DNA of 35,942 nucleotides from Alphaproteobacteria bacterium (GTDB lineage Bacteria > Pseudomonadota > Alphaproteobacteria > UBA2136 > UBA6156): contig JAIXUT010000136.1 of assembly GCA_027483385.1 (NCBI GenBank), positions 1-35,942 on the forward strand. The letters run 5' to 3'. How positions within the stretch are numbered: the stretch's first letter is position 1; every line of letters begins with the position of its first letter. Of this stretch, positions 2,476-25,240 are shown in pieces. Made by a program: the position numbers and the translations under genes. The notes beneath the pieces are model-generated. The model was given only the letters and a program-made list of their open reading frames with translations. It searched no databases and was not told the origin of the DNA.

Positions 2476-3614
2476 TAGTAAACCTCGCCAACAAAGGCTT
2501 CGGGCATGAACGGGTTGGCGCTATCGGGACCGATGGGCAAGGCCGTTTTGGTGGTTGCGGGTTTGGCTTGCGCAGGGGTTTCAGGCTTGGCTGCCGCAGA
2601 TACTGGCCGCGTGCCACGCTTCACGCTTAACGCCAGCGCCGCCATTTGCTGGCGCCATTGCTGGATCGGCACCGCCGGCACGCCTGCCACCACGCTGCCC
2701 GGCGCTTCAATGGTTTTGGTCACTGCACTCTTGGCCGCCACCATACATTTGGCGGCAATGCTTAAATGCCCCGCCACCCCAACCTGCCCACCCAGCACGC
2801 ACCAATCGCCAATGGTGGTGCTGCCGGCAATCCCGCTTTGTGCGGCAATCCGCACGCCGCGGCCTAAGGCTACGTTATGGGCAATCTGCACTTGTTTATC
2901 CAGTTTGGTATCATCGCCGATGGTGGTGTCGTTCAAAGCGCCTGCATCGATGGTGCTGTTGGCGCCAATTTCCACGCGGTTACCAATTGTTACGCGGCCC
3001 AGATGCGGGATTTTAATCAGCTCATCGGCCGCTTGGGCAAAGCCAAAACCATCTTGGCCAATCCGTACCCCGCTATGAATTAAGCAATCGGCGCCCACAC
3101 TGCAGCGTTCCAGCGTTGCATGGGCGCCAACCTTGCTGCCTTTGCCAATCACCACGCCTGCGCCAATCACCGCATGGGCGCCAATGTGGGCGCCTTCACC
3201 CACCTGAGCGTTGGCATAAACCACCGCGTAGGGTTCGATGCGCGCCGTGGGATGAATGCTGGCCGAGCTGCTGACCACCGCAAACTGCGAAACCCCTGCA
3301 ACCAAAGGGCTGACCGGGTAAAACGCATGCAATGCGCGGGCGTAAGCTACGTAAGGCTGTGGGCAGATAATCGCAATGGTGGTGGCAGGGAGTAGTTGGG
3401 CATCGGCCTGGCGCACCAACACGGCGCCCGCTTTGGTGGCCTGGGCCATGGTCTTGTAACCCGAATTATCCAGGAAGCTTAAATCGGCAGCGGTGGCTTC
3501 ATTTAACGGGCGAATGGCGGCAAGTTCCAACGCCCCGCCATTGGCTGGCACTGGCACCCCCAAACGGGCACAGAGTTCAGCCACCGTTTGCCGCACGGGC
3601 GCGTGCTCAGTCAC
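2475..3614 (-). CDS. lpxD: UDP-3-O-acylglucosamine N-acyltransferase LpxD
   Basis: ADLSFLDNSGYKTMAQATKAGAVLV plus hexapeptide repeats, IGQDGFGFA, IAHNVALGRGVRIAAQSGIAGSTTIGDWCVLGGQVGVAGHL. Has an extra Pro/Ala/Lys-rich C-terminal tail. Confidence 0.95.
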   Translation of the reverse strand: MTEHAPVRQTVAELCARLGVPVPANGGALELAAIRPLNEATAADLSFLDNSGYKTMAQATKAGAVLVRQADAQLLPATTIAIICPQPYVAYARALHAFYPVSPLVAGVSQFAVVSSSASIHPTARIEPYAVVYANAQVGEGAHIGAHAVIGAGVVIGKGSKVGAHATLERCSVGADCLIHSGVRIGQDGFGFAQAADELIKIPHLGRVTIGNRVEIGANSTIDAGALNDTTIGDDTKLDKQVQIAHNVALGRGVRIAAQSGIAGSTTIGDWCVLGGQVGVAGHLSIAAKCMVAAKSAVTKTIEAPGSVVAGVPAVPIQQWRQQMAALALSVKRGTRPVSAAAKPETPAQAKPATTKTALPIGPDSANPFMPEAFVGEVY

Positions 3615-7806: not shown

Positions 7807-8148
7807 ATGGGATTTCTTGACCTTGAGGATGAGGTTGGAACACAAATCTACATTAGTGCTCCAAAACCCCAACGTAAGTTCGTTGGGATTCCTCAAACCT
7901 CCACACACGAGGTTATTAAACAGTTAAAAGAACAAGAGGTTGGATTCAAACACACAAAAGATCCAAGCCAGCGTCCATTTATCTCAACCAATGAGAAATA
8001 CGAATTTATCTGCTTACGCGTTGATGATCATCGATCCTGGAAAACTCGACTAAGCAATCTCATTCGCGCGAAACGAATCGGTTGCCCTGATTGCGCGAGG
8101 GTCGTCACAATCAAGAACCTTACGAAGCCGAAGCCGCCCCCTGAATAA
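7807..8148 (+). CDS. Small hypothetical protein with possible treble-clef/zinc-binding C-terminal half
   Basis: 113 aa ORF with SD-like GGAGA upstream of ATG; visibly AT-richer than neighbours; C-x5-H...GCPDC pattern (YEFICLRVDDHRSWKTRLSNLIRAKRIGCPDCAR). Confidence 0.65.
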   Translation: MGFLDLEDEVGTQIYISAPKPQRKFVGIPQTSTHEVIKQLKEQEVGFKHTKDPSQRPFISTNEKYEFICLRVDDHRSWKTRLSNLIRAKRIGCPDCARVVTIKNLTKPKPPPE

Positions 8149-23609: not shown

Positions 23610-24674
23610 ATGAAAACCCGCCCACTTGGCACCACCGACCTGCACGTGTCCGAAATTTGTCTCGGCACCATGACCTGGGGCACCCAAAACACCGAGGCCG
23701 AGGCCTTTGCCCAAATGGATTACGCGCTTGGCGCCGGTGTTACCTTTTGGGATACCGCCGAAATGTACCCCACCAATCCCGTGAAGCTGGAAACTATGGG
23801 CGACAGCGAACGGATGATTGGCCGTTACTTTGCCCAGCGCCCGACCGTGCGCAACAGCGTGGTGCTGGCCAGTAAAATTACCGGCCCCGGGCGCTACAAA
23901 CTGCGCGAGGAAAGCAACATTACCCCCACCACCTTGGCGCAGGCGCTAGAAGCCAGCCTGGAGCGCCTCAATACCGACTATCTCGATTTATACCAGCTGC
24001 ATTGGCCAAACCGTGGCAATTACCACTGGAGCGGCCACTGGCATTACGCCGGCGTGGGCAGCGCGATAGTGCAGCAAAAAACCGAGCGGATTGAGGCCGA
24101 CTTGCTGGCCATTTTAGAAACCCTCGATGGTTTTGTGAAAGCGGGGAAAATTCGACACTGGGGCCTAAGCAACGATAGCAGCTGGGGCACTATGAAGTAT
24201 CTGCAGCTGGCCGAAAAGCACGGGCTCGCCAAGCCAGTTTCAATTCAAAACGAGTTTAACCTGACGTGCCGCCTGTTCGAGCCTGATCTGGCTGAAGTAA
24301 GCCTGCGTGAAAAGGTCGGGCTGCTGGCCTGGAGCCCGCTGGCGGGCGGCTTCTTAAGTGGCAAATATTACGGGGGAACGCGCCCCGCAGGCAGCCGCGC
24401 AGCCTTGGCGGGCTACAGCGGTGGCCAACGCCACACGCCGCAAGCGCAGGCAGCCGTGGATGCCTACACCGATCTCGCCCGTGTCCATGGCCTGGAGATG
24501 AGCCAAATGGCCATCGCCTTTACGCTGGCGATGCCCTTTACCACCAGCAGCATTATTGGTGCCACCACCATGGAGCAGCTGAAAAGCAACATTAGCGCCG
24601 CCGACTTAACCCTTTCCGCCGAAGTGCTGGCCGGGATTGCGGCAATTCATAAGCAGTACCCAATGCCGTATTAG
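23610..24674 (+). CDS. Aldo/keto reductase (Tas-like)
   Basis: MKTRPLGTTDLHVSEICLGTMTWGTQNTEAEAFAQMDYAL, FWDTAEMYP, LDLYQLHWPNR, KIRHWGLSN. Confidence 0.9.
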   Translation: MKTRPLGTTDLHVSEICLGTMTWGTQNTEAEAFAQMDYALGAGVTFWDTAEMYPTNPVKLETMGDSERMIGRYFAQRPTVRNSVVLASKITGPGRYKLREESNITPTTLAQALEASLERLNTDYLDLYQLHWPNRGNYHWSGHWHYAGVGSAIVQQKTERIEADLLAILETLDGFVKAGKIRHWGLSNDSSWGTMKYLQLAEKHGLAKPVSIQNEFNLTCRLFEPDLAEVSLREKVGLLAWSPLAGGFLSGKYYGGTRPAGSRAALAGYSGGQRHTPQAQAAVDAYTDLARVHGLEMSQMAIAFTLAMPFTTSSIIGATTMEQLKSNISAADLTLSAEVLAGIAAIHKQYPMPY

Positions 24675-25240
24675 TGAAAACCAATTTTGTGACTTCTCCA
24701 TGTGTCATCCTGAGTGAAACGAAGGACCCAGGTCTTTTTCATGAGGCCAAGACCTGGGTCCTTCGCGTTGCTCAGGATGACAGGCTTTTTTTATATGTTT
24801 GGTTCGTTGTTTTGGTAAGCAGTCTCATTGCGTGCACCCCCCTTCAAAACATTCCCCCACACACTCCCACCCAAACCTTTGGCCCGTGGAATGTCAGCCA
24901 ATGCACCATTTCAACCCGCGCAGCCGATGTTTGGGTAATCACCACAGGCAGCCTTACGTTTGGCGGCGAACTTGAGTTTCAGGCCCAGTTTACCCCGCCC
25001 TTGGTGCGGCCACCCTTTGCCACCATCAGCGGGCGGCCCATACCTGTGCGCATCGAAGGCGCCAACCGAACCTATAACCTATTCATCCCTTACAACCCCG
25101 AGAATGGGGCGCATTTTCTGCAAACTGGCAGCTTCATCACCCTTACTTACCAGCCACTGGGGCGTACCGACCTGCAAGATGTCAGCTTCCCAACGGCGCC
25201 TTTGATGCAGGCTTTGGGCGCCATTGCGGGCTGCCCGTAG
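24674..25240 (+). CDS. Putative lipoprotein; N-terminus read through a palindromic repeat
   Basis: Hydrophobic stretch RLFLYVWFVVLVSSLIAC (lipobox-like LIAC) followed by TPLQNIPPHTPTQTF. The only in-frame GTG starts found lie upstream of the repeat (24674, 24689). Confidence 0.6.
   Translation: MKTNFVTSPCVILSETKDPGLFHEAKTWVLRVAQDDRLFLYVWFVVLVSSLIACTPLQNIPPHTPTQTFGPWNVSQCTISTRAADVWVITTGSLTFGGELEFQAQFTPPLVRPPFATISGRPIPVRIEGANRTYNLFIPYNPENGAHFLQTGSFITLTYQPLGRTDLQDVSFPTAPLMQALGAIAGCP
24703..24782. repeat. Palindromic dispersed-type repeat (tgtcatcctgag...ctcaggatgaca)
   Basis: Left arm 24703-24737 tgtcatcctgagtgaaacgaaggacccaggtcttt; right arm 24748-24782 is its near-perfect reverse complement. 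Confidence 0.9.

Follow-up and report, generated by a model that had tools for sequence, protein, structure and literature searches.

A head-to-head pair of REP-like hairpins was found at 24703-24782 between an aldo/keto reductase gene and a lipoprotein gene. It is probably a gene-less miniature mobile element which was inserted directly behind the native ATG of the lipoprotein gene, and on whose arms a GIY-YIG nuclease acts. The window, the whole stretch of 35,942 nucleotides that was analysed, is part of a 1.94-Mb MAG. The pair (TGTCATCC...GGATGACA, no strand assigned) was delimited by inverted-arm, copy and fold analyses. For its insertion into the reductase-lipoprotein operon we rely on a comparison with relatives and in part infer it.

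An earlier note on this DNA had described a near-perfect palindrome in frame between GTG 24674 or 24689 and a lipoprotein signal, and its arms, fold and open frame were confirmed. The arms (24703-24736 and 24749-24782) are 34 nt each, 88% complementary and separated by a 12-nt spacer. The RNA fold of the region was calculated to be -59 kcal/mol, compared to a shuffle mean of -27.6 (z = -10). By unit alignment the left unit, 24703-24730 on the forward strand, consists of the tag TGTC, the hairpin ATCCTGA-GTGAAAC-GAAGGAC and the tail CCA, and the inverted right unit, 24755-24782 on the reverse strand, of a TGTC tag, ATCCTGA-GCAACGC-GAAGGAC and a CCA tail. All four mismatches between the arms fall within the central 7-mer, which forms a mini-hairpin in each arm (GTGAAAC versus GCAACGC), and GTGAAAC in the left arm is a compensatory variant in which an inner T-A pair replaces C-G. 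Two complementary pairs in the 7- to 9-base centre were preserved in 35 of 35 units, and the triloop was freely variable (AAC, GCA, GTA, GAA, TCA, TTA, AAA). The confinement of the window-arm mismatches to the centre suggests a constraint on the hairpin of each arm, and not solely on the large palindrome. By calculation the DNA mini-hairpins in the family are weak, at -1.4 to -2.2 kcal/mol. Animal and plant microRNA families of Rfam matched 24702-24782 below threshold (38 bits, cut-off 99) and were rejected, since any long hairpin would probably give such matches. Three bases past the hairpin, in a terminator-like position, the forward strand carries a run of seven T (24786-24792) within native Leu-Phe codons. 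The run may also stop transcription; a consensus terminator scan did not report the site.

The reductase gene (PF00248, E = 1.1e-68) occupies 23610-24674 on the forward strand and its stop TAG overlaps GTG 24674-24676 on the same strand (TAGTG). This GTG and GTG 24689 are the only upstream starts that are open through the palindrome into the lipoprotein-type leader RLFLYVWFVVLVSSLIAC. The frame contains one further start, TTG 24812, which lies within the hydrophobic core. The earlier note had overlooked ATG 24700 abutting the repeat. Based on ortholog starts and leader comparison, this ATG (24700-24702, forward strand) is the probable native start of the lipoprotein gene, and it is now out of frame, reading MCHPE followed by a stop. 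The remaining coding sequence (24782-25240, forward strand) holds the leader from AGG 24782, the lipobox LIAC and an intact mature part, as judged by ortholog identity. Same-genus orthologs in two genomes (G003 and G001) were 62-64% identical over query residues 14-142, and weaker orthologs were found elsewhere in the family and order; profile searches of Pfam and NCBIfam gave no family for the protein. In both same-genus genomes the ortholog immediately follows the same aldo/keto reductase gene, has no palindrome and starts at an ATG 11 nt (G003, CCTCC-ATG) or 20 nt (G001, CCTCCCCCC-ATG) past the reductase stop. The counterpart in the window, CTTCTCC-ATG, lies 25 nt past that stop and the palindrome starts at the next base. 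Joining ATG 24700 to AGG 24782 gave the leader MRLFLYVWFVVLVSSLIAC, which is normal for a lipoprotein and similar in length to those of the relatives. Because orthologs without the element start at this same place and the rejoined leader is normal, the element was most likely inserted right after ATG 24700-24702, leaving the ATG out of frame from its gene. The start-site comparison proposed in the earlier note thus marks ATG 24700 as the native start, and its suggestion that the palindrome had taken the native start from the gene was borne out. A counter-point is that the restored frame requires an insert of 79 nt (24703-24781, between ATG and AGG 24782 in the ancestral reading) and not the full 80 nt; the last A of the palindrome may belong to the host, one base may have been lost, or alternatively the length of the T run may have changed.

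Initiation at ATG 24700 should be hindered by the hairpin that starts at the next base, and would yield only five residues. The sole route to the lipoprotein would be GTG 24674, from which coupled translation could give a product of 188 residues with a 37-residue n-region. Of the tested copies of the repeat, most have only one or two stop-free frames out of six, and two have none; the open frame in the window is therefore no sign of selection and most likely accidental. Of the two outcomes offered earlier, extended n-region and inactivation, either may apply: the gene has been knocked out or is weakly rescued from GTG 24674 by coupled translation. Insertion of such an element can detach a start codon from its gene, and gene finders will annotate the deceptively open frame as a long N-terminus.

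The earlier expectation of a dispersed repeat was supported by the genome-wide search. The tag pattern TGTCATCCTGAG had 48 sites at no more than one mismatch in the MAG, compared to none for the reversed pattern, and about 22 two-armed copies were found. The copies are 80-121 bp long (80, 84, 106, 119, 120, 121 and others), are not multiples of three and consist of two inverted units that flank a variable middle part. They are intergenic and often near the 3' ends of genes. A related 20-base pattern occurred at 0-3 sites per genome in the same genus and at none in other members of the family and order. No consistent target-site duplication was seen by eye in the copy flanks, and most copies have no close empty site. 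At L011:1492-1929 (G000:C125) a further copy was found in the 5' leader of an ORF. This ORF has an ATG of its own past the repeat, and gene finders would wrongly extend it through the palindrome.

Few short repeats are as widespread in bacteria as the CGTC-tagged palindromes. The latter were surveyed by Di Nocera et al. 2013 (PMC3733652), with the Rickettsia conorii repeats RPE-4 and RPE-6 and the Neisseria repeat dRS3 among them, and the survey found no dedicated transposase. The window family resembles these repeats in its CGTC/TGTC tag, hairpin and CCA tail, and in forming head-to-head dimers that are mostly intergenic and near 3' ends. Of the published tags (CGTC, TGTC or CCTC), TGTC was found at the outer end of both window units. 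Both units end in GAAGGAC-CCA, and the copies are many, mostly head-to-head dimers and mostly intergenic. However, the published stem is 8-9 bp long and starts with AT, with a loop of 4-5 bases (PMC3733652), whereas the window stem is interrupted (4 bp, tandem G-A, 2 bp), begins with an A-C pair and closes on a triloop. The window units deviate in stem and loop from the four published CGTC families, and are thus regarded as a variant and not a member. Many of the arms found here to frame GIY-YIG genes fit the published description exactly and, in contrast to the repeats without a dedicated transposase reported in 2013, have a GIY-YIG gene between them.

Five GIY-YIG genes were found in the genome, one of which, a frame of 728 residues, is probably UvrC. 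A small gene at C198:26204-26559 is exactly framed by arms of the window repeat family. A second small gene, on C52 (L094), is likewise framed exactly, by a distinct subfamily of it in which both arms match each other, and the gene at C143 by arms of a third family with a different palindrome (GGTCATTGCGAG..., 20 tags in the genome). The gene on C184 is flanked by repeat units at just one of its ends. The match to PF01541 had E = 3e-15, and the two Tyr, the Arg and the Glu that are taken as catalytic positions of the GIY-YIG domain were invariant in alignment A1.

Framing was examined at 80 named GIY-YIG loci from many phyla, of which 78 could be tested for inverted arms and 77 for tagged hairpins. 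Inverted arms within 150 nt and with a score of at least 30 were found at 54 of 78 loci (69%). Among 1262 shifted boxes the rate was 0.55%, and among cross-paired flanks 9.6%. Outward-tagged GTCA-hairpin-CCA units stood on both sides of 46 of 77 loci, but in only 1 of 1109 shifted boxes. Median arm identity was 0.87 within a locus and 0.67 between loci. Distances between proteins and between arm stems were not correlated (Mantel rho 0.055, a value reached or exceeded in 429 of 2000 permutations). A given enzyme may therefore accept stems other than its own, or arms may have been exchanged. Between two genes of one genome (G297), which by our own reading are gltX and pth, lies a unit of 351 bp in which a GIY-YIG gene is flanked by a hairpin on one side and an inverted hairpin on the other. 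In the genome of a sister species (G305) the same two genes adjoin, with neither GIY-YIG gene nor repeat pair, as an empty site. Across the class sample, relatives of the nuclease were present in 89 of 289 genomes, in up to 11 copies. With REP-rich genomes defined by at least three CTTGA-loop CGTC-type units, the nuclease was found in 33 of 48 REP-rich and 56 of 241 other genomes, an odds ratio of 7.3 (p = 3e-9) that is uncorrected for phylogeny; 15 of the 48 REP-rich genomes had no such GIY-YIG gene. At L231:2135-2539 (Porphyrobacter sp. AAP82) a REP dimer, a GIY-YIG gene and a single inverted REP were observed just upstream of an apparent sucD.

Because the same arms frame its gene here and across phyla, the GIY-YIG nuclease is the likely mover of the palindromic repeats, and it is the best candidate for moving CGTC-tagged REPs in general. 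The nuclease would recognise each unit (TGTC/CGTC tag, hairpin and CCA tail) as a folded single strand and cut there, after which the arms, and anything between them, could move. The arms would be the ends of the mobile unit, and the window copy a gene-less derivative of an arm-GIY-YIG-arm unit. Cutting of folded single strands by this enzyme is suggested by the arm hairpins, by analogy with RAYT and by the reported activity of the Ssn family. RAYT transposases (TnpA-REP) have been proposed to act on GTAG-tagged REPs. REPINs and REPtrons are alike in that inverted hairpin repeats flank an enzyme gene and that gene-less dimers are numerous. They differ in that the enzyme here is GIY-YIG (PF01541) and not Y1 (PF01797, of which none was found in the MAG, 89% complete), and in that the tag is TGTC/CGTC and not GTAG. 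Ssn, reportedly described by the Veyrier laboratory in 2025 (Nat Commun), is said to be a GIY-YIG family which cuts single-stranded DNA at the repeat NTS in Neisseria. The study is said to include many homologs, each with its own sequence, and to focus on DNA uptake and tools; it may already cover part of the link between GIY-YIG enzymes and repeats. The open-access papers searched gave nothing linking GIY-YIG to REP, RAYT, REPIN or MITE and no report matching the DNA or peptide of the window repeat, and GIY-YIG is not mentioned in a part of the later literature citing the 2013 survey (PMC3733652). We give an even chance to the broader proposal of a multi-phylum class of mobile elements, with an orphan GIY-YIG gene between inverted CGTC-tagged hairpins, that would generate, by cutting and copying single strands, the CGTC-type REPs, the long-known palindromes of Rickettsia and Neisseria among them. 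Such a class would be the counterpart of RAYT/REPIN with an unrelated enzyme. The outward-tagged framing would name a testable enzyme for CGTC-tagged repeats and would explain why the arms fold by themselves.

The earlier note had likened the window copy to the palindromic elements of Rickettsia (RPE-1 and others), which are likewise read in frame at an N-terminus, and had proposed counting how often the copies are in frame. R. conorii proteins with an N-terminal RPE-1 are indeed expressed (2013 survey, PMC3733652). A palindrome that codes for a working extended n-region, with the lipoprotein made from GTG 24674, would also suit the open frame, the TAGTG overlap, which favours coupled translation, and the intact and conserved remainder of the gene. 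This is nevertheless unlikely. The count gave a single case, the window copy, among about 22 two-armed copies in which the repeat lies in an ORF without a later start codon, so that the likeness to Rickettsia was not supported: the repeats here avoid genes, their lengths do not keep the frame and the one in-frame case is probably gene-damaging. Furthermore, the native ATG is displaced out of frame, and an intact downstream frame is equally expected after a recent insertion. It is likewise unlikely that the repeats are the target and not the ends, with GIY-YIG genes homing into existing pairs and the repeats spreading by other means. The lack of correlation between protein and arm-stem families agrees with homing, as does the far greater number of gene-less than gene-bearing pairs, but the match between arms is far closer within a locus than across loci, and the sister genome at gltX-pth is without the repeat pair as well as the gene.

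The size of 80-121 bp, the terminal inverted repeats and the intergenic spread would fit a MITE. The copies could then be ordinary MITEs belonging to a DDE-type insertion sequence; another option is a REPIN of the GTAG type, with a RAYT as its mover. Either is improbable given that the copies have no GTAG tag and no target duplication visible by eye in their flanks, that each arm folds by itself and that a search of the MAG for Y1 transposases found none. It is very improbable that the hairpin is a fixed, non-mobile structure that terminates transcription of the aldo/keto reductase gene or stabilises its mRNA. The T run 3 nt past the strong hairpin, and the many copies near gene 3' ends, speak for such a function, but the hairpin is absent from the same place in both same-genus relatives, has a high copy number and was passed over by the terminator scan. 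A gene-less mobile element behind the native ATG, moved by the GIY-YIG nuclease, is the preferred reading of the window copy.

Related structures were also observed. At L081:1140-1566 (G000:C190) two arms of the family surround about 350 nt of AT-rich DNA without a GIY-YIG gene; a frame of about 90 codons in this interior could encode a small membrane-type protein and is possibly captured cargo. Longer relatives of the repeat with the shared TGTCATCCTGAG ends and a different interior, ACCGAAGTTC...GCGAAGGATCCAGTGG, were found at L074, L082, L086 (near 3041-3201) and L091, and form a further subfamily. In the window itself, a small ORF of 113 aa with foreign-looking composition (7807-8148) was noted beside the uppS-rseP genes.
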